Shown here one piece after another: positions 37-19,859 of a stretch of DNA of 33,711 nt. Under the pieces are notes generated by a model. It worked only from the letters and a program-made list of their open reading frames with translations, had not been told where the DNA came from and ran no database searches. Origin of the DNA: a virus. The stretch covers positions 1 through 33,711 of the IMG/VR virus record IMGVR_UViG_3300026521_000361. One strand, written 5' to 3'. A program made the position numbers and the translations under genes. Numbering within the stretch: the stretch's first letter is position 1; every line of letters starts with the position of its first letter.

Positions 37-111
37 ATGGAACACGTAATAGGCTACACACTAATAGCGTTTATCTACATAATCCTTGCATACATTGAGT
101 ATGCACACTAG
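37..111 (+). CDS. 24-residue hydrophobic membrane peptide
   Basis: The frame encodes MEHVIGYTLIAFIYIILAYI plus EYAH and a stop, so almost the whole peptide is one transmembrane helix. A very strong Shine-Dalgarno (AAAGGAGG, 23-30) lies 6 bases before the ATG, the best in the first kilobase. Function is unknown. Its size, hydrophobicity and position next to a structured non-coding region resemble type I toxins, and bases 137-142 (CACCTC) can pair with the SD (GAGGTG, 27-32). It could equally be a small subunit or accessory peptide of a gene to the left of the window. The neighbouring left context is missing, so the operon cannot be judged. Confidence 0.5.
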   Translation: MEHVIGYTLIAFIYIILAYIEYAH

Positions 112-373
112 CTAACTTATGAGAGTAAGAGCCTACCACCTCTTGCTCTCTACTACTATCAACTATGCTTCATTCATCCATAACCTCGCTTGATAGGTTA
201 GTGGGTATCTACTTTAACAAGTGCCAATCCTGCGTGGCACATCTATAAGTCAATTCCTAAAAGCTTTGCTTGAAACAATTATCATCAAGCCTCAATATCT
301 ATGCGTATTGCTATCGCCTTCACTTTTAGGAACTCAAAACAAAGTTAAGCTAAAAAGCTGTTTTTTTGTTTTG
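112..373 (+). ncRNA. Inverted-repeat-rich intergenic region, possible structured RNA
   Basis: No credible gene is seen in 112-512, but four strong inverted repeats lie in the first 260 bases. They are 121-131/140-150 (11 bp with one G-U), 221-226/235-240 (perfect, loop 8), 254-263/323-332 (perfect 10 bp) and 335-343/365-373 (perfect 9 bp, with nested AGCT/AGCT and a T-rich right arm). Inside the 254-332 stem are two more hairpins, 268-273/285-290 and 293-297/306-310, giving a three-way-junction shape. The last hairpin could serve as a terminator. Strand is assumed. The region may be a small RNA, the structured 3' UTR of the 24-residue peptide, or part of a recombination site. Confidence 0.35.
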
Positions 374-384
374 TTGATACAATG

Positions 385-399
385 TTACCGATATGGAAA
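385..399. promoter_or_regulatory. Repressor operator, left pair, distal site
   Basis: TTACC-GATAT-GGAAA matches the TTACC-N5-GGTAA palindrome of the repressor/Cro intergenic region with one arm mismatch. Its centre (392) is 34 bp from the next operator centre (426), the same spacing as between two operators in the control region. Confidence 0.6.
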
Positions 400-418
400 T
401 AAAAGTAAGCTTAATTTG

Positions 419-433
419 TTACCTAAATGGTAA
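419..433. promoter_or_regulatory. Repressor operator, left pair, proximal site
   Basis: TTACC-TAAAT-GGTAA has perfect arms. Bases 419-435 are an exact inverted copy of 3034-3050 in the repressor control region. The site ends 7 bp before a TATAAT box (441-446), so bound repressor should block that promoter. Confidence 0.75.
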
Positions 434-440
434 TTTATGA

Positions 441-446
441 TATAAT
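441..446 (+). promoter_or_regulatory. -10 box of the lipoprotein gene promoter
   Basis: TATAAT lies 66 bp before the chosen ATG at 513 and directly after an operator. The TTGTTA at 416-421 is a poor -35 with 19-bp spacing, but Campylobacterota promoters usually lack a conserved -35. A second TATAAT at 489-494 would start transcription almost at the ribosome site, so it is less likely. Confidence 0.55.
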
Positions 447-512: not shown

Positions 513-935
513 ATGAAAGTTTTATTAGTGTTATTTGTTTTGTATAGTAGTTTGCTATCATGTGATTTAAAGAGAGGATATACAGGGTACTGGTCTATGA
601 GTTGGGAAAAGGGCACAGGAGATGTTAAGATGTATATAACATTAAGAGAAAAAGATGGTGGAAATATTATTTATTCAGCAGTCTTCTTAGAAAATCGTGA
701 TGTTAAAATTGAAAAGAATGGAGATAGAATTACATTATATTTTGGAAAATCAATTTTCGGATATGATAGGGAGAATAATAAGCCAATTTATTATGATGTA
801 GTTTTCAATGGCACTGTTAGTGATGATTGTAACAAGATAGACTTAAAAGCTGATCTTGGCGATGGTAAAAGTATTAATATGTGGTTTGACTACAATGAAA
901 CATATCAATCATTGACAACTTGGAAGTATAGATAA
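513..935 (+). CDS. Small phage lipoprotein, repressor-regulated
   Basis: The start at 513 is preferred over an in-frame ATG at 468. It gives a lipoprotein signal peptide (MKVLLVLFVLYSSLLSC, lipidated Cys17) and has AAAAGGA just upstream, whereas the longer form buries the signal. The mature part, about 124 residues, looks all-beta, with alternating polar and aromatic residues and no recognisable catalytic motif. Asp18 follows the lipidated Cys; in enterobacteria Asp at +2 retains lipoproteins in the inner membrane, but this rule may not hold here. Two repressor operators and a TATAAT box precede the gene. Phage lipoproteins of this size often act in surface change or superinfection exclusion, but no specific function is recognised. 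The stop lies 7 bp from the end of the converging toxin gene. Confidence 0.75.
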   Translation: MKVLLVLFVLYSSLLSCDLKRGYTGYWSMSWEKGTGDVKMYITLREKDGGNIIYSAVFLENRDVKIEKNGDRITLYFGKSIFGYDRENNKPIYYDVVFNGTVSDDCNKIDLKADLGDGKSINMWFDYNETYQSLTTWKYR

Positions 936-942
936 TTTTAAG

Positions 943-1299
943 TTAATTGCTCAATAATTCTAAATCATCACAACCGACAAAAAGTGACTTACAGTTTCTT
1001 TTGTCTTTTATAATTCTCTCATACTCTCTATGTTTTCCTATCCAGGAGGCTATGTATATAGTCTCATCTTCACACTCTTTTACACTTATGAGTATTCTTA
1101 CTTGTGTTTGTGGAAGTACTGTGATAGATATGATAGTGTATGCTTTTTTACAGGATATTTTATGTGGTCTTATATCTTTATTTTTTGGATCTTCTTTGAA
1201 AATATCTATTGTTTTTTGATATTGCTCAAGAGTGATAAGCTTTTTAGCTACTAGCCTATCACGCTTCTTGAAGAAGTTTGGAGTCGCTTTTACTATCAA
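943..1299 (-). CDS. RelE/ParE-superfamily toxin
   Basis: This 118-residue protein has the RelE/YafQ layout: an N-terminal helical hairpin (residues 5-40), then beta strands, with a C-terminal IASWIGKHREYERI segment (83-96) matching the family's 'iG.H.eYdr' ending. Such toxins are usually ribosome-dependent mRNA endonucleases. Basic residues near 44-52 (RPHKISCKK) are plausible RNA contacts, but catalytic residues cannot be assigned safely. The gene overlaps the end of the upstream putative antitoxin by 41 bp, which implies translational coupling. It is slightly longer than typical RelE (about 95 residues), with a C-terminal extension containing two Cys. Confidence 0.75.
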   Translation of the reverse strand: MIVKATPNFFKKRDRLVAKKLITLEQYQKTIDIFKEDPKNKDIRPHKISCKKAYTIISITVLPQTQVRILISVKECEDETIYIASWIGKHREYERIIKDKRNCKSLFVGCDDLELLSN

Positions 1300-1732
1300 G
1301 GTAAGCCTGTGCAGTTTTTTGTGATATGCTAAATTCTATGTTTACTAATGTAGAGTATAGCTCCTCATAGGCATCTAGCAGTGTTGTTTTAAATATGTTA
1401 TCTATAGATTTAATATCTACAGTATCTATAATATTTTCTACTTCATCTTTGAGTTGAGACACTTCATCATCAACAACATTTAAAAGTTCTAAATCTTCAT
1501 CAATATTGTGTATCTCATAAAGTTCTATAAAGTCTCTTATAGTTTGAGCCTTTGCATTTGCTTCATGTGCTGATGCTGTTAATTGCATTACTGTATTTTG
1601 AAGATTTTTTATCTTTTTTTTGAGTAGATAATCTTCTTTATACGATGCAATAGTATCAATAACGCTATTTAAAGCTGTTTCAATATCGAAAGTAGGAAAT
1701 ATCTGTTGTTGGTTTAAATGTAGTGCATTCAT
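1259..1732 (-). CDS. Putative antitoxin, coiled-coil rich
   Basis: The protein has 157 residues and is predicted almost wholly alpha-helical. The region from about 37 to 120 is rich in heptad-like Leu/Ile/Val spacing and acidic residues. No RHH, HTH, AbrB or Phd DNA-binding fold is evident, and it is longer than common antitoxins (60-100 residues). Its role is inferred from position: it lies upstream of, and overlaps, the RelE-like gene. AAGGAG stands before the ATG, with a TACAAT-like box further up on the minus strand. It could be a two-part protein with a C-terminal toxin-binding segment (about 125-157). It could also be unrelated to toxin control. Confidence 0.5.
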   Translation of the reverse strand: MNALHLNQQQIFPTFDIETALNSVIDTIASYKEDYLLKKKIKNLQNTVMQLTASAHEANAKAQTIRDFIELYEIHNIDEDLELLNVVDDEVSQLKDEVENIIDTVDIKSIDNIFKTTLLDAYEELYSTLVNIEFSISQKTAQAYLDSKSDSKLLQEA

Positions 1733-2380: not shown

Positions 2381-2959
2381 TTATAAATCCGAAATTATCT
2401 TAATGGCTTTAGCACATCTAAGCTCATCTTCCTTAACCATTATAGGCGTAAATCCGTCAGTATTTAGAGGGTATAGTGTTACTATTCCATCTTTTAGCAT
2501 AAACTTTTTAAGTCCGCTATCTCCATCATTTGTAGTGTAGTGTACTATGTTTCCATTTTCACATGGAGCATCTTTATCACACATCACAATATCCCCATGA
2601 GCAATGCGTGGAAGCATACTATCACCCTCAGCAGTAACAGCATAGACACCATCACGAGCAAATTTATCAGGTACAGGTATATACTCAATAATATCATCGT
2701 ATGACTGGCTAGGAACTCCACATGATGCAATTCCTATAAGAGGTATTTGTTTAACTTTTATTGTATCAATATCATGTAGATAGTCAGTTGATACATTAAA
2801 AAATTCAGCAATTTTAGGTATTAATGATGTAGGTATTTCTCTTTTGCCTTTTGCATATCTATTTACATTAGTAGGAGTTTCATTTAAAAACTCAGCCAAT
2901 CTTCTTTGACCACCTCTGCCATAGTCTTCTAATAATTTATTTAATTTTTGATACAGCAC
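2381..2959 (-). CDS. CI/LexA-type repressor, HTH plus S24 autopeptidase
   Basis: This 192-residue protein has an N-terminal XRE-type helix-turn-helix (about 3-62, RRLAEFLNETPTNVNRYAKG) and a C-terminal LexA/UmuD-type S24 domain (about 72-192). The expected self-cleavage site is Cys80-Gly81. The nucleophile is Ser114 in EGDSMLPRI, and the general base is Lys151 (or 152) in SGLKKFML. All elements look intact, so RecA/SOS-dependent inactivation and prophage induction are expected. The start is GTG with AGGGAG upstream. Three operators lie just upstream, one overlapping its own TAAAAT -10 (2984-2989, minus strand), which suggests autoregulation. Confidence 0.93.
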   Translation of the reverse strand: MLYQKLNKLLEDYGRGGQRRLAEFLNETPTNVNRYAKGKREIPTSLIPKIAEFFNVSTDYLHDIDTIKVKQIPLIGIASCGVPSQSYDDIIEYIPVPDKFARDGVYAVTAEGDSMLPRIAHGDIVMCDKDAPCENGNIVHYTTNDGDSGLKKFMLKDGIVTLYPLNTDGFTPIMVKEDELRCAKAIKIISDL

Positions 2960-2983
2960 AATATCTCCCTTATGTAATGAAAT

Positions 2984-3053
2984 ATTTTACCATATAGGAA
3001 ATATCCATTATGGTAACAATTTAAGCTTTTGTTAATTACCATTTAGGTAATAT
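2984..3053. promoter_or_regulatory. Divergent repressor/Cro control region with three operators
   Basis: Three copies of a 15-bp palindrome are visible. They are TTACC-ATATA-GGAAA (2987-3001), TATCC-ATTAT-GGTAA (3002-3016) and TTACC-ATTTA-GGTAA (3036-3050), with centres 15 and 34 bp apart. The first overlaps a minus-strand TAAAAT (2984-2989) facing the repressor gene. The third overlaps a plus-strand TAATAT (3048-3053) facing the Cro-like gene. The layout matches a lambdoid switch with three sites and two opposed promoters. Confidence 0.8.
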
Positions 3054-3059
3054 TTCTTT

Positions 3060-3302
3060 ATGAAAATAATTGATATTGAAAAAAAGACAAACTATTCATC
3101 TGCAAATATTATTAGATGGCTTAATAAGTCAAGACCTATTAAACTTGAAACAGCTAGGGATATTTCAAAAAAAATGAAAGTTCCTATAACAATCTTTGAA
3201 GATGCAAATGTTCAAATCAAATATCTTGGTAAATCTTACCTACAAGAAAATAATACTAAATCAAAAAAAAGTGAACAAGTGATGAAAGGTGCGAAGCAAT
3301 GA
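3060..3302 (+). CDS. Cro-like HTH regulator, probably leaderless
   Basis: The 80-residue protein has an XRE/Cro helix-turn-helix in its first 50 residues (YSSANIIRWLNKSRPIKLET) and a short basic tail (KSKKSEQ). It is transcribed divergently from the repressor and is the first early gene, the position of Cro, so it probably competes for the same operators. No Shine-Dalgarno is seen before the ATG. The TAATAT box at 3048-3053 predicts a transcript start at about 3060, the A of the ATG, so a leaderless mRNA is likely. The stop overlaps the next gene's start (ATGA). Confidence 0.75.
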   Translation: MKIIDIEKKTNYSSANIIRWLNKSRPIKLETARDISKKMKVPITIFEDANVQIKYLGKSYLQENNTKSKKSEQVMKGAKQ

Positions 3303-3544
3303 GAACAGGTGTGCTATTTGGAGAGAATGAAGAGAGTGATGAAGATAAGAAGTTAAATCGCATTACTACAAGTTTTGATGATGAGACTTTTAGGTTTATC
3401 GACGAGATAGCAAAATCAAAAGGTTACTCTCACAGCAAAGTAGTAAATATTCTTTGTAAGTCTGTTTTTAGAGATGTGAAGGATCAAGCAACTTTAATTG
3501 TTGAAAATCCTATTGCTGTAGCGTTTGATTTAGTAACGAAGTAG
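3299..3544 (+). CDS. Ribbon-helix-helix DNA-binding protein
   Basis: This 81-residue protein contains a ribbon-helix-helix core at about residues 20-60: a strand NRITTSFDD, helix ETFRFIDEIAKSKG and helix SHSKVVNILCKSVF. Proteins of this fold bind DNA as dimers and act as phage early regulators (Arc/Mnt-like) or antitoxins. It overlaps the Cro-like gene by 4 bp, so the two are translationally coupled and probably both belong to the genetic switch. No toxin partner follows; the next 263 bp are non-coding. Confidence 0.65.
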   Translation: MRTGVLFGENEESDEDKKLNRITTSFDDETFRFIDEIAKSKGYSHSKVVNILCKSVFRDVKDQATLIVENPIAVAFDLVTK

Positions 3545-3807
3545 CTTTGTAGAGTGTCTTTTGAGGCACTTTATCAAGGTTATTGATGCCCTTGCAACTG
3601 GCAGGCTGCAAGAGCGATGAAATCAGTAATCTGAAATCAATACAAAAGAAGTCAATTACACGAGGCAAAAGACAACAAAAAATTATATCGTTTTTTGCCT
3701 TAGTGTTTCAACTAAACTAATTTCAAAAAGGGTAAGCGGTGTTTATGTGGTGTTAGACCGCTTAACCTTACTCTTTTTGAAGTTGCTAACACCAAAAGGC
3801 AATAAAA
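3545..3807 (+). ncRNA. Structured early leader with possible pseudoknot
   Basis: The gap holds no credible gene but has several inverted repeats. They are 3553-3558/3565-3570 (one G-U), 3591-3596/3607-3612, 3663-3670/3693-3700 (AGGCAAAA/TTTTGCCT) and a large hairpin, 3722-3730/3773-3781 enclosing 3733-3740/3757-3764 (TAAGCGGT/ACCGCTTA). The loop of the large hairpin contains GGTGTTAG (3749-3756), which can pair with CTAACACC (3786-3793), immediately before the AAAAGG ribosome site of the next gene. An H-type pseudoknot that gates translation, or an antitermination element between immediate-early and replication genes, would fit. Neither is proven. Confidence 0.45.
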
Positions 3808-4035
3808 ATGAGAAAGCACGCAAAAGCGATCCTCAAAAAACTATACGAAACAAAATCAAAACTTACGGCTACAGATTTTAACTACATATCAAATCCTAAT
3901 CAATACTTTTGTGAACTAGAAAATGCAGGACTTATAACAAGTGAATGGGCTAAAAGAGGTGATGCCAAAGTAAAGCTTAGATACATAGCAAACAATCAGC
4001 TAAAGAAAGCTAAGCAAGTTCTAGGTGCTGCATAA
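3808..4035 (+). CDS. Small winged-helix-like early protein
   Basis: This 75-residue basic protein reads like a winged helix-turn-helix. It has a helix (AKAILKKLYETKSKLTATDF), a second helix around NPNQYFCELENAGLI, and a strand-turn-strand wing (TSEWAKRGDAKVKLRYI). This layout is common in small phage DNA-binding proteins that discriminate DNA ends or regulate early genes. The specific family was not recognised. It sits behind the structured leader, and its stop overlaps the ATG of the replication initiator-like gene by one base, so the two are in one operon. Confidence 0.55.
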   Translation: MRKHAKAILKKLYETKSKLTATDFNYISNPNQYFCELENAGLITSEWAKRGDAKVKLRYIANNQLKKAKQVLGAA

Positions 4036-4817
4036 TGAAAAATATACTACAGGCACTTAATGAAAGACCTATTGCATACTATCCTGCATACAGAAAGATA
4101 ACAGGATCAACAACAGCAGCTATCTATTTGTCTCAGGTTATGTACTGGTTTAGTAAAAAAGACAAATTTTTCAAGACAGATGCAGAGATAATGGAAGAAA
4201 CTCTACTTACTAGAAAAGAGATTGAGAATGCAAAAAAACTTATAAAAAAGCTTGATTTTATAACAATAACAAGAGAGGGTATTCCTGCAAAAACATACTA
4301 TGAAATTGACTGGAATAAATTTGCAGAATGTTTAAATAATCTTGAAAAAGAGTGTGAAAATGATGGTGAAACAAGTAACCACGAAAAGTGTAGCACTGTT
4401 TCCCCAAAAGGTGGAAACTGTACTCCCCAAAAAGACGAAACTATTATAGTAAAATCTTTGACTAAGACTACAACAGAGATTACAACTGAGACTTCTATAA
4501 AAAATACACAAAAAGGCTACGAAGACTTCATCAAGCTTTTAAAATCTCAAGCTCCTATCAAATCAAAAGTTACAAAGACTAGAGACGGATATAACTTCTT
4601 CAAGCAAATAGCAGACAAAGAAAAACTGCTGCATGACTACATAGCACATCAGCACGATAAAAAAGAGTTTGCTAAACGCATTACTCCGTTTATGGAAGAT
4701 TACAACACTATGCCAACTCAAACAAGCACTACAAGTGGAACAATGCAGGCAGCAGGGCAGTGGGCTATGAATAAACTCAATGGTCCACATACTCAACAAG
4801 GAGGTGCAATATGCTAA
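4035..4817 (+). CDS. Replication initiator-like HTH protein
   Basis: The first 95 residues match a family of phage/plasmid replication proteins. The matching pattern is 'IAYYPAYRKITGSTTAAIYL' then a 'QVMYWF' helix, EIMEETLLTRKEIENAKKLI as recognition helix, and a wing ending in YYEIDW. Residues 115-160 are a low-complexity Thr/Glu/Lys linker, and the C-terminal 100 residues are helical. Such proteins are placed like lambda O: they bind the origin and recruit a helicase loader. The next gene is loader-like and overlaps by 7 bp, which supports this. The origin may be inside or near this gene, but no convincing iterons are seen. Confidence 0.65.
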   Translation: MKNILQALNERPIAYYPAYRKITGSTTAAIYLSQVMYWFSKKDKFFKTDAEIMEETLLTRKEIENAKKLIKKLDFITITREGIPAKTYYEIDWNKFAECLNNLEKECENDGETSNHEKCSTVSPKGGNCTPQKDETIIVKSLTKTTTEITTETSIKNTQKGYEDFIKLLKSQAPIKSKVTKTRDGYNFFKQIADKEKLLHDYIAHQHDKKEFAKRITPFMEDYNTMPTQTSTTSGTMQAAGQWAMNKLNGPHTQQGGAIC

Positions 4818-5398
4818 GTGAGATTGTATTTGCAAAAGGAATGACTTTTTTAAGCATAGCACTAGGAGAAAAAGATCTTAACGATGCAAAGCTAGATGTT
4901 TACTATGCGGTGCTTAAAGAGATGAGTGATGAGAGTTTTGAGAAAAGCATAGAGAGAGTTGCAAAGACTAGAAAGTTTAAAGGGCTACCTACTCCTGCTG
5001 AGATACTTGAGCATGATACGACTAGAGATGTACTCTTTGCAGATGTTGATAAAGAAGCCAAAGCGATGTATGACAAGTTCTATGCAGAGTGTGGCGCAAT
5101 GCTTGAGTTTTGTACTGCAAACAGAGACACAATACCAAGCGACAGAGAGTTTTTTAGAAACTGCAACTATGCAGAGCTAAAGACAAAGCATGGAGATAAA
5201 GCATACACGAAAAAAGAGCTTTATGTACTCAATGCACTAGGCGGTGGCGATTGGCTCATTGACATAAAAAACTATGAAAACAGTGCCGTAGTTGTTGCAA
5301 AGATCGCAGCAGAGATACAAAGAGCAATAGAGATTAAATACTTAGCTACGAACTCGATAGAGAGTAAGAGAGTTAAGAAAATGATAGGAGCTGCGTGA
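4811..5398 (+). CDS. Helicase-loader-like replication protein
   Basis: This is a 195-residue, largely helical protein. The stretch around residues 22-68, with YYAVLKEMSDESFEKSIERV and then TRKFKGLPTPAEILE, resembles the helical domain of G39P/lambda P-type helicase loaders and related phage replication proteins. The role inferred is delivery of host DnaB to the origin marked by the upstream initiator. The start has an excellent SD (AAGGAGGTG), very like that of the 24-residue peptide gene at 37. It overlaps both neighbours. Family membership rests on pattern and gene order, not on a catalytic motif. Confidence 0.55.
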   Translation: MLSEIVFAKGMTFLSIALGEKDLNDAKLDVYYAVLKEMSDESFEKSIERVAKTRKFKGLPTPAEILEHDTTRDVLFADVDKEAKAMYDKFYAECGAMLEFCTANRDTIPSDREFFRNCNYAELKTKHGDKAYTKKELYVLNALGGGDWLIDIKNYENSAVVVAKIAAEIQRAIEIKYLATNSIESKRVKKMIGAA

Positions 5399-6284: not shown

Positions 6285-6788
6285 ATGAGTAAAAAGCTAA
6301 CAGTAAAGCAAGAGAAGTTCGTACTTAAATATTTTGAGTGTGGTAATGCTAGTGAAGCTTATCGTTATGCTTATAGTGCATCCAAGATGAAAGATAGCAC
6401 AGTATGGGAAAAGTCCTCTTTGATGTTAAAAAACGACAAGGTAAGGGCAAGGCTGCAAGAGTTAAGAACTAAAGCAGAAGAAGAAAGCAAGTGGAGTGTA
6501 GAGAAGATAATCAAAGCTCATACTCGAATATTTGAGATAGGCATCGGTGATGTAGCAAGTAGCCATATTGTTTCAGAGGGTGCAGGAGATGGAATTACAA
6601 ACACTATTGAAGTTGAGATGAGAGATACAAATCTAGCAAGTGCAAAAGGTGCATTAGTTGAGATAGGAAAGATACTAGGCTACTACGAGAAAGATAACAA
6701 GCAAAAAAGTGGCGACATATCACTCGAAGAGTTTGCAGAGTATTTCTACAACAAAAATAAGCAAAAGAGCAATGCTGATGAAAACTAA
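6285..6788 (+). CDS. terS: Terminase small subunit
   Basis: The protein begins MSKKLTVKQEKFVLKYFECG, followed by NASEAYRYAYSASKM and WEKSSLMLKNDKVRARLQEL. This is the Terminase_2 pattern, with an N-terminal HTH that recognises the packaging site. The ATG at 6285 is chosen because it has AGAGG upstream and the family start; an extension back to 6228 would add 19 unlike residues. The middle and C-terminal regions are helical and should form the ring-assembling oligomer and the contact with the large subunit. The gene overlaps the large subunit gene by about 11 bp. Confidence 0.9.
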   Translation: MSKKLTVKQEKFVLKYFECGNASEAYRYAYSASKMKDSTVWEKSSLMLKNDKVRARLQELRTKAEEESKWSVEKIIKAHTRIFEIGIGDVASSHIVSEGAGDGITNTIEVEMRDTNLASAKGALVEIGKILGYYEKDNKQKSGDISLEEFAEYFYNKNKQKSNADEN

Positions 6789-11351: not shown

Positions 11352-12290
11352 ATGCTAACAACATTAAACACAGCATTAACGCAGAAGCCGTCGATAGTCG
11401 ATGCGATTATCAAACAGGGTGTAGCAACTGCACCTATTATCCAAATGATTGGAACAGGTAGCATCTCAGCACCGCAGCACAGTTGGATCAACGATAGATA
11501 TGCAGATGCAAAAGACAATGCAAATCTTGAACTATCAGACCTTGATGAAAACACAGTACCGACAAAAACAAAAAATACAAATGTCGCACAAATCATTAAA
11601 AATGAGGTTGGTGTAACTAAGCGTCAAATGGAGATGAGCCAGTACGGTGGTAAAGAGTGGGCGTACCAAGTAGGTAAAAAAGGTAAAGAGCATCTTAAAG
11701 ATATTGAGTTTGCACTTTTAGGTTTAGGTAACACAAGCATTGAAGCTGCACCGGTTGTTGCAACTGCAACAAAAGCACCAAGAATGGCAGGACTGTTCTA
11801 CTTTGTACCTGATGAGCAAAAATATACAGTTGATGGTTATAATCCATCAGATGATGCAAGTTTTGTTGATTTTTCACTTGATGAGCTGCACAAGTTCTTA
11901 GAACCTCTTTGGAAGCGTGGAGCTATGGAAGATGATACTTTTAAAATCCTTTTAGGCTCAAAACTAAAACAAAAAGTAAATCAAGCGTGTAAAGATTACA
12001 TTGTTAAGTACAATCAGCCAACTAATGGGAAGATTGATCCTACAGTTACACGCATCGTTACAGACTTTGGTGAAGTTGAGTTCCAACTACACAGACACTT
12101 TGCAGGAGATAAGCTCAAAGATAAGATGCTTGCAGGTAAATTCAAAGAGGCAAGAGCTATGTATGTATCTCAAACAAGTTTCTCAGAAGTACCAACATCT
12201 AAAACTGCAAAATATGGTCGTTACTATTCTGACCTTACTTTAGAGGTTAAAAACGGGGATATGTTCGCATCTGCAAAAGGGTGGAAATAG
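11352..12290 (+). CDS. Major capsid protein, SU10/DUF5309-like
   Basis: The protein has 312 residues. The segment APIIQMIGTGSISAPQHSWI and the late TRIVTDFGEVEFQLHRHF fit the SU10-type (DUF5309) capsid family of HK97 fold. The rest has the expected mix of N-arm, long helix (KDIEFALLGLGNT) and beta strands. No N-terminal prohead protease delta domain is evident and no protease gene is near, in line with a separate scaffold. It has its own spaced SD (GAGAGAGG) and lies behind a terminator plus a promoter-like element, as expected for the most abundant virion protein. Confidence 0.82.
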   Translation: MLTTLNTALTQKPSIVDAIIKQGVATAPIIQMIGTGSISAPQHSWINDRYADAKDNANLELSDLDENTVPTKTKNTNVAQIIKNEVGVTKRQMEMSQYGGKEWAYQVGKKGKEHLKDIEFALLGLGNTSIEAAPVVATATKAPRMAGLFYFVPDEQKYTVDGYNPSDDASFVDFSLDELHKFLEPLWKRGAMEDDTFKILLGSKLKQKVNQACKDYIVKYNQPTNGKIDPTVTRIVTDFGEVEFQLHRHFAGDKLKDKMLAGKFKEARAMYVSQTSFSEVPTSKTAKYGRYYSDLTLEVKNGDMFASAKGWK

Positions 12291-13125: not shown

Positions 13126-13145
13126 AATCAATACAAAAGGAGTTA
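13126..13145 (+). repeat. Conserved translation leader, copy 1
   Basis: AATCAATACAAAAGGAGTTA here is identical to 19840-19859 and similar to 3635-3654. It contains the ribosome site AAGGAG. A small hairpin (13103-13107/13111-13115, TGAGC/GCTCA) precedes it by 10 bases. Confidence 0.7.
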
Positions 13146-13149
13146 TATT

Positions 13150-14127
13150 ATGGCAGATAATGTAACAACAGACGAACTAGAACAGGCGTTGCAAGACTTA
13201 GCCTCAGAGATGGGTTTATCCGTTAAGGAGTATGTAGAGTCATTGGGCTATGCAACAGTTGCAGAACTTCAAGCAGCGGAAGCAAACTTACAAGCACAAA
13301 TCACGGCTATTACAGAGCTTGATGCAGACAATGGTGCTGAGTCGTTAGCTGAGAAAATTGCAGCGATCAATGCAGTTATTTCAGATGAAAATGGTGCAAT
13401 CCAAAATATTCTCGGAAAAATTCTTGAGAACAAGCAGGCTATCTTAGATGAAGTCACTCGTGCTACAGCAGCAGAAGCAGCACTACAGTCACAAATCACT
13501 GCAAATGCAAACAAAACTGCATCAAATGAAGCTGCGATCACAAGCATTGTATCAAAAGCAAATGAGCTAAAAGAAGCTCAAGATGCCGTTAATGCAGATG
13601 TTGAAAATCGTTTATCTGGTGTTGAGGGTACACTTGAGACACTTACTAGTGATGAGACTGTAGATGGATCTATTGCTAAATCTATTGCAGATGAAGCAGC
13701 TCGAACAAATGTGGCAATTTCTACTGCTAAAACAGAAGCTATCGACACTGCAAAAGCTTACACAGATGAAAAAATCGAAGCTATCACTGGTGATACTGCT
13801 ACAACAGTAGCCGGTCTTGATGAGCGTGTAACCGGTGTTGAAAAAACACTAAATGATACAACTGATGAAGATGGAAACCTTGTTAAAGGTGTAGTTACTC
13901 GCTTATCTGATGTTGAAGCAAAAGTCGATGCAAATGAAGTAAAGCGTGTTCAAGAGTTAGAGCAAGCAGTAGAAGAGCTTAAAGCATACTCAGATGCAAG
14001 AGATTTAAAAGCATCTTCTATGGATATTTGCGGCATTGGCAACAAATTCCGTGCATCTTTAGGGCTTGCAGCAAGAGACTGTTCAGGTGGAACATCTGGC
14101 GGTGACGGAGATGGTGCAGTAATCTAA
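13150..14127 (+). CDS. Coiled-coil virion/tail protein
   Basis: The 325-residue protein has an N-terminal module (residues 5-31), then a long stretch (about 40-285) rich in Ala, Glu, Asp and Thr with heptad patterns such as TAAEAALQSQITANANKTAS and KTEAIDTAKAYTDEKIEAIT. This is typical of trimeric coiled coils in phage fibres. The C-terminal segment (289-325) carries MDICGIGNKFRASLGLAARD and a Gly/Asp-rich end. The leader AATCAATACAAAAGGAGTTA gives a strong SD. It is probably a structural fibre or tail component. The paired 55-residue gene upstream shares both ends. Confidence 0.65.
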   Translation: MADNVTTDELEQALQDLASEMGLSVKEYVESLGYATVAELQAAEANLQAQITAITELDADNGAESLAEKIAAINAVISDENGAIQNILGKILENKQAILDEVTRATAAEAALQSQITANANKTASNEAAITSIVSKANELKEAQDAVNADVENRLSGVEGTLETLTSDETVDGSIAKSIADEAARTNVAISTAKTEAIDTAKAYTDEKIEAITGDTATTVAGLDERVTGVEKTLNDTTDEDGNLVKGVVTRLSDVEAKVDANEVKRVQELEQAVEELKAYSDARDLKASSMDICGIGNKFRASLGLAARDCSGGTSGGDGDGAVI

Positions 14128-19839: not shown

Positions 19840-19859
19840 AATCAATACAAAAGGAGTTA
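19840..19859 (+). repeat. Conserved translation leader, copy 2
   Basis: AATCAATACAAAAGGAGTTA is identical to 13126-13145. It provides the SD for the gene at 19864. The hairpin 19816-19830 ends 9 bases upstream, the same layout as copy 1. Confidence 0.7.

Follow-up and report, generated by a model that had tools for sequence, protein, structure and literature searches.

In a viral stretch of 33,711 nucleotides (IMG/VR record IMGVR_UViG_3300026521_000361, positions 1 to 33,711; hereafter the window), two palindromic sites precede the gene of a small predicted lipoprotein close to the left end, and the question arises why apparent operators of the phage repressor should be found in front of such a gene. 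The original prediction was that the repressor's regulon extends to the lipoprotein promoter. Its reading of the letters is borne out, in that two TTACC-N5-GGTAA sites are present (419-433 perfect, 385-399 with one mismatch), bases 419-435 are an exact inverted copy of 3034-3050 (reverse complement identical at 17 of 17 positions), and the left pair is spaced 34 bp centre to centre, which is the distance from 3009 to 3043 in the control region.

From our point of view, a wider role is probable, namely that 385-433 (Table 1) represents the left operator region (OL) of a lambda-like two-region lysogeny switch, by which a leftward early promoter pL and the lipoprotein gene are repressed and also released jointly. 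What we observe is where the sites lie and how they are spaced, that they co-vary with the repressor, and that the cargo beside them differs between relatives; binding as well as direction and timing of regulation are predicted from these. The repressor would bind the three sites of the right operator (OR, 2987-3050) and the two OL sites, the latter flanking the -35 position of pL, one centred at about -17 and the other at about -51, an arrangement that two of the OR sites repeat at pR. In the lysogen, repressor on OL would block both pL and the lipoprotein promoter, and repressor self-cleavage after DNA damage, or infection, would turn on pL, pR and the lipoprotein gene together.

Table 1. 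Proposed control elements and associated genes of the two operator regions, in window coordinates.
Feature	Position	Strand	Remarks
Proposed -10 of pL (TAACAT)	382-387	-	Position relative to operator as at the pR -10; conserved across relatives
OL, pL-proximal site	385-399 (centre 392)	.	TTACCGATATGGAAA; 1 mismatch to TTACC-N5-GGTAA
OL, lipoprotein-proximal site	419-433 (centre 426)	.	TTACCTAAATGGTAA; perfect TTACC-N5-GGTAA palindrome
Extended -10 of lipoprotein promoter	438-446 (hexamer 441-446)	+	TGATATAAT; retained in Sulfurimonas relatives
Cargo gene, small predicted lipoprotein	513-935	+	ORF; 140 aa, LLSC lipobox
Repressor	2381-2959	-	HTH + S24 peptidase domain (PF00717 1.3e-19, PF01381 4.4e-07)
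Proposed -10 of repressor promoter (TAAAAT)	2984-2989	-	Overlaps operator 2987-3001; phase as at pR and pL
Right operator site	2987-3001 (centre 2994)	.	1 mismatch
Right operator site	3002-3016 (centre 3009)	.	2 mismatches; position conserved among relatives
Right operator site	3036-3050 (centre 3043)	.	Perfect
Proposed -10 of pR (TAATAT)	3048-3053	+	6 nt ahead of cro ATG; from alignment over relatives
cro-like gene	3060-3302	+	Weak PHROG transcriptional-regulator match (6e-4); swapped with repressor HTH in L006

Repressor, cro and the two proposed operator regions

From left to right, the window holds the left operators, the lipoprotein gene, a leftward block headed by the repressor gene, then cro and the replication, terminase, head, tail and lysis genes. 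The repressor, whose close relatives are found in Sulfurimonas MAG contigs, matches LexA and UmuD' in alignment and is probably LexA-like and self-cleaving. Its gene is divergent from cro, a call that is weak by profile, and the three sites between the two genes are spaced 15 bp (2994 to 3009) and 34 bp (3009 to 3043). The second operator region of the same specificity, 385-433, lies beyond the repressor gene, on the side away from cro, an arrangement that recurs in 19 of the 20 related records compared below. Two further matches with one mismatch were rejected as operators, namely 1290-1304, which is coding sequence and is also kept in the related record L006 despite its different repressor, and 11663-11677, which lies inside the major head protein gene.

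Some features of this region deserve mention in their own right. The cro gene lacks a Shine-Dalgarno sequence (3048-3062), and since its ATG also follows the proposed pR -10 by only 6 nt, the cro mRNA probably has no leader; most relatives show this spacing as well, including those with the other repressor class. Downstream of the repressor, two overlapping genes (943-1299 and 1259-1732, minus strand) resemble a toxin-antitoxin pair by size and order and are conserved in L005 and L006, and searches gave no family match for them. Among the proteins scanned, which are part of those of the window, no integrase was found.

Operators and repressors in related phages

Between heteroimmune lambdoid phages, a change of repressor goes along with a change of operators, and the same is seen here. 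In the left flank (about 1-375) and in the replication protein, the record L006 matches the window at 99.6%, yet its repressor has a different N-terminal HTH and its cro differs as well. Its OR consists of GTAAG-N5-CTTAC sites at 3873, 3907 and 3931, and its left pair, at 6296 and 6330, is of the same GTAAG-N5-CTTAC class and again 34 bp apart. L008 likewise combines near-identical flanking DNA with the other repressor HTH and cro and with GTAAG-N5-CTTAC sites at OR and in the left region (34 bp), whereas L005, with an HTH of the window type, has operators of the window class at both regions. From the comparison of L006 and L008 with L005 it thus appears that the class of the left sites goes with the repressor HTH while the flanks stay unchanged, and the counterparts of 385-399 switch class along with the repressor.

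This relationship holds more widely. In 19 of 20 records, among which some were selected by their 34-bp spacing, the left pair belongs to the class of the pair beside the repressor and is spaced 34-35 bp, with six operator classes represented; contig 3300026521_000198 (L015 and L022) agrees. Scans of viral contigs for 34-bp pairs gave further phages, which are likewise selected by spacing, and TTACC pairs in contigs where no related repressor was detected (such as L027-L031, L034-L036, L040, L042 and L045-L047) were excluded from the counts. As a less biased set, genome loci were picked by repressor similarity alone, with up to 19 kb around each; the operator was defined upstream of the repressor, and all pairs of 20-50 bp spacing were scored in the 9 kb beyond it. 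An OR pair could be defined in 8 of these 17 loci, the other nine having no recognisable one, and in seven of the eight (L067, L070, L071, L073, L074, L077 and L094) the top-scoring left pair was of the OR class and spaced 34 or 35 bp. The eighth, L095, has no convincing left pair in the 9 kb scanned, and L069 shows the same arrangement, though below the thresholds of the locus scan.

The lone exception among the 20 records, L003 (contig 3300026382_000086, 1-6096), combines a repressor and OR of the window type with a left pair of the GTAAG class. From its left end to just beyond the left operators it shares 98.3% identity with L017, and in the immunity genes 96.6% with L005; the junction lies just right of OL, near 3721, and L003 is therefore best explained as a recombinant or a chimeric assembly. 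If it is truly recombinant, its own repressor could not read its OL.

Taken with the sites themselves, the comparison makes it very likely that 385-433 is an operator region of the repressor. That the sites are targets of the phage's own repressor, as originally predicted, is thus strongly supported by co-variation with its DNA-binding domain, but the pair does not appear to be a mere extension of the regulon to the lipoprotein promoter, being rather the OL of a bipartite OL/OR switch with the geometry of a pL.

Two proposed promoters at the left operators

The -10 of the lipoprotein promoter is extended and shows at most one change among the Sulfurimonas relatives while the adjoining operator switches class. 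The lipoprotein-proximal site had been placed between the -10 and -35 regions of this promoter; the -10 is indeed good, but no -35 hexamer is recognisable, and the site ends 7 bp upstream of the -10. From the centre of the perfect operator to the start of the hexamer is 15 bp, and that centre falls at about -27, a position shared to within 1 bp by L003, L005, L006, L008, L017, L041 and L074. A consensus promoter scan of the window was uninformative (26 found, 23.4 in shuffles). RNA polymerase should be blocked by an operator at -27, and the repressor resembles LexA and UmuD; from this promoter geometry and kind of repressor we think it likely that the lipoprotein gene stays off during lysogeny and is switched on by induction or upon infection.

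It could alternatively be imagined that the role of the operators is confined to pL and DNA looping, and that the lipoprotein is expressed constitutively or in the lysogen, possibly with the repressor as activator. Prophage cargo genes are frequently expressed in lysogens, and lambda repressor activates from a position near -39, which is about where the operator lies relative to the proposed cargo start in L019 and L021. In the window and the seven relatives named above, however, the operator centre at about -27 falls within the RNA polymerase footprint, a typical position for repression, and we consider exclusive service to pL and looping unlikely.

Joint control of pL and the gene to the right of OL is our preferred reading, and that gene varies from phage to phage at this one site (window, L005, L006, L008, L014, L019, L032 and L041). 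The slot holds exported or lipoproteins with a shared start in the window, L003, L006 and L008, a small zinc-finger-like protein in L005 and L003, a HIRAN protein in L014, a zinc-ribbon membrane protein with a staphylococcal-nuclease homologue in L032 and L069, a C5 DNA methylase in L041, and in L019 (8045-9892) and L021 (3197-5038) a protein of 613-615 aa with a GHKL ATPase domain, which had no PADLOC match. In L019 and L021 the cargo -10 also lies farther from the operator than in the window, and cargo control may differ there. The lipoprotein of the window has no match in Pfam, PHROGs, NCBIfam or PADLOC, and its single-sequence structure model (pLDDT 52) was too poor for a structure search. 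Since relatives with a different repressor have changed these sites too, the lipoprotein gene would be linked to the lysogeny switch as one among several interchangeable cargo genes.

The spacing of 34 bp, by contrast, would belong to pL and not to the lipoprotein promoter. In an alignment over the relatives, pR (from the middle to the cro-proximal operator) and the left region read leftward follow one common design, consisting of an operator, an AT-rich spacer of 19 or 20 bp, usually with a central TTTAA or TTAAG core, and a second operator that overlaps or abuts the -10 (TAATAT, TAACAT or TACAAT); transcription would start about 17 bp away from the near operator's centre. As the layout of the left pair equals that of pR when read leftward, the pair appears to be built around a leftward promoter, back to back with that of the lipoprotein gene, which uses the same operators from the other strand. 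The relatives whose sequence is complete to the left carry exonuclease and RecT-like genes leftward of pL. The left edge of the window is 384 bp from the operator pair and thus comes before any such genes; the phage's own pL operon would lie beyond base 1, as the leftward early genes of the relatives do. OL and OR are 2.6 kb apart in the window and 1.1-5.9 kb across the records, distances that are compatible with looping. Overall, we regard it as likely that the left region is an OL with a pL.

The simpler notion that the pair governs the lipoprotein promoter only, as a regulon extended to a cargo gene and with no pL at all, draws on the good extended -10 so close to the perfect operator and on the 384 bp to the left, which hold no leftward gene and a single small ORF (37-111, plus strand). 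Against it stands that the left pair takes on the pR geometry only when read leftward, that leftward early genes follow in L003, L005, L008, L014, L017, L022 and L067, and that L018 retains the pair although no cargo gene comes after it; we therefore hold it to be quite improbable.

Several side observations may be added. A hairpin at the start of the proposed pL leader (335-373, minus strand) beats shuffles when folded alone (z -2.7); its support in an alignment is weak, and it was set aside. A nut-like antitermination element, considered for the shared motif ATCAATACAAAAGARGT, was dropped because this motif recurs upstream of late genes within a ribosome-binding leader. The motif AATCAATACAAAAGGAGT recurs at 3636-3652, 13127-13143 and 19841-19857; left-arm leaders of L003, L005 and L017 contain it too, and the copies at 13127-13143 and 19841-19857, just before the ATGs of the genes at 13150 and 19864, resemble a shared ribosome-binding leader. 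Base 1 of the window coincides with the end of the L006 contig, and when contigs extending beyond the left end were sought, only this one came up, ending at the same base; the shared end may be a physical terminus of the genome or a break in the assembly. In L018, the leftward operon contains ParB- and ParA-like genes (2405-5255), and the same phage contig carries a tyrosine-recombinase-like gene at 1-1131.

Two further explanations of the left sites are weaker. They could be mainly Cro sites, as the exchange that separates the window from L006 involved cro along with the repressor HTH, and for this reason co-variation cannot split the shares of repressor and Cro, so that the sites could serve Cro too; but Cro of phiKO2 binds one OR site and no OL site (PMC4997575), and a main role for Cro seems very unlikely to us. 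That the pair consists of chance palindromes in AT-rich DNA, where loose matches with up to two mismatches are common (16 in the window, 11 expected), can practically be dismissed, as a pair of one perfect site and one with at most one mismatch at 34 bp, or at any spacing of 16-60 bp, occurred in none of 1000 dinucleotide shuffles of the window (mean of 0.008 perfect sites per shuffle), and as the sites co-vary with the repressor across the relatives.

Relation to known switches and meaning for Campylobacterota phages

A switch of this kind is already known from several phages. The operator sites of 933W are split three plus two. Its OL and OR together comprise five 15-bp operators bound by a lambdoid repressor (PMC3317979). 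The window likewise has five 15-bp sites but differs in host group, sequences and spacing, and in that a cargo promoter at OL faces the repressor gene. In the immB region of N15 and phiKO2, the repressor binds three OR sites, located between its gene and cro, and two OL sites across the repressor gene (PMC4997575), a layout that the window shares, with binding predicted; there, however, repA of a plasmid prophage is under OL control, the sites measure 16 bp and the repressor lacks self-cleavage residues, whereas here OL faces a recombination-gene operon in the relatives and the repressor has an S24 domain. Lambda, unlike the window, has three sites per region, and its rex cargo is expressed with the repressor, while here the cargo would be transcribed from OL toward the repressor operon. 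The OL and OR of lambda are about 2.3 kb apart (PMC5880393), similar to the 2.6 kb found here. What sets the present system apart would thus be the fixed 34/35-bp geometry, the sequence classes, the host group and this orientation of the cargo. In the open-licence papers covered, we found no description of such operators in phages of Campylobacterota, which is weak evidence of absence.

One could speculate, though this is doubtful at present, that temperate phages of Campylobacterota share a fixed 34/35-bp two-operator unit at pL and pR whatever the operator sequence, that OL is the switch of an exchangeable cargo slot in which the distance of the cargo -10 sets silencing or activation in the lysogen, and that OL cassettes recombine independently of the repressor, as in L003.

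For phages of Sulfurimonas and other Campylobacterota, the locus suggests a lysogeny switch that is defined by sequence and comes in six apparent operator classes, so that their immunity groups could become readable from sequence. It further offers a docking place for cargo (lipoproteins, nuclease, methylase and ATPase) adjoining the repressor sites, and the functions of such cargo would hence be worth seeking not in the lysogen alone but also during early lytic growth.
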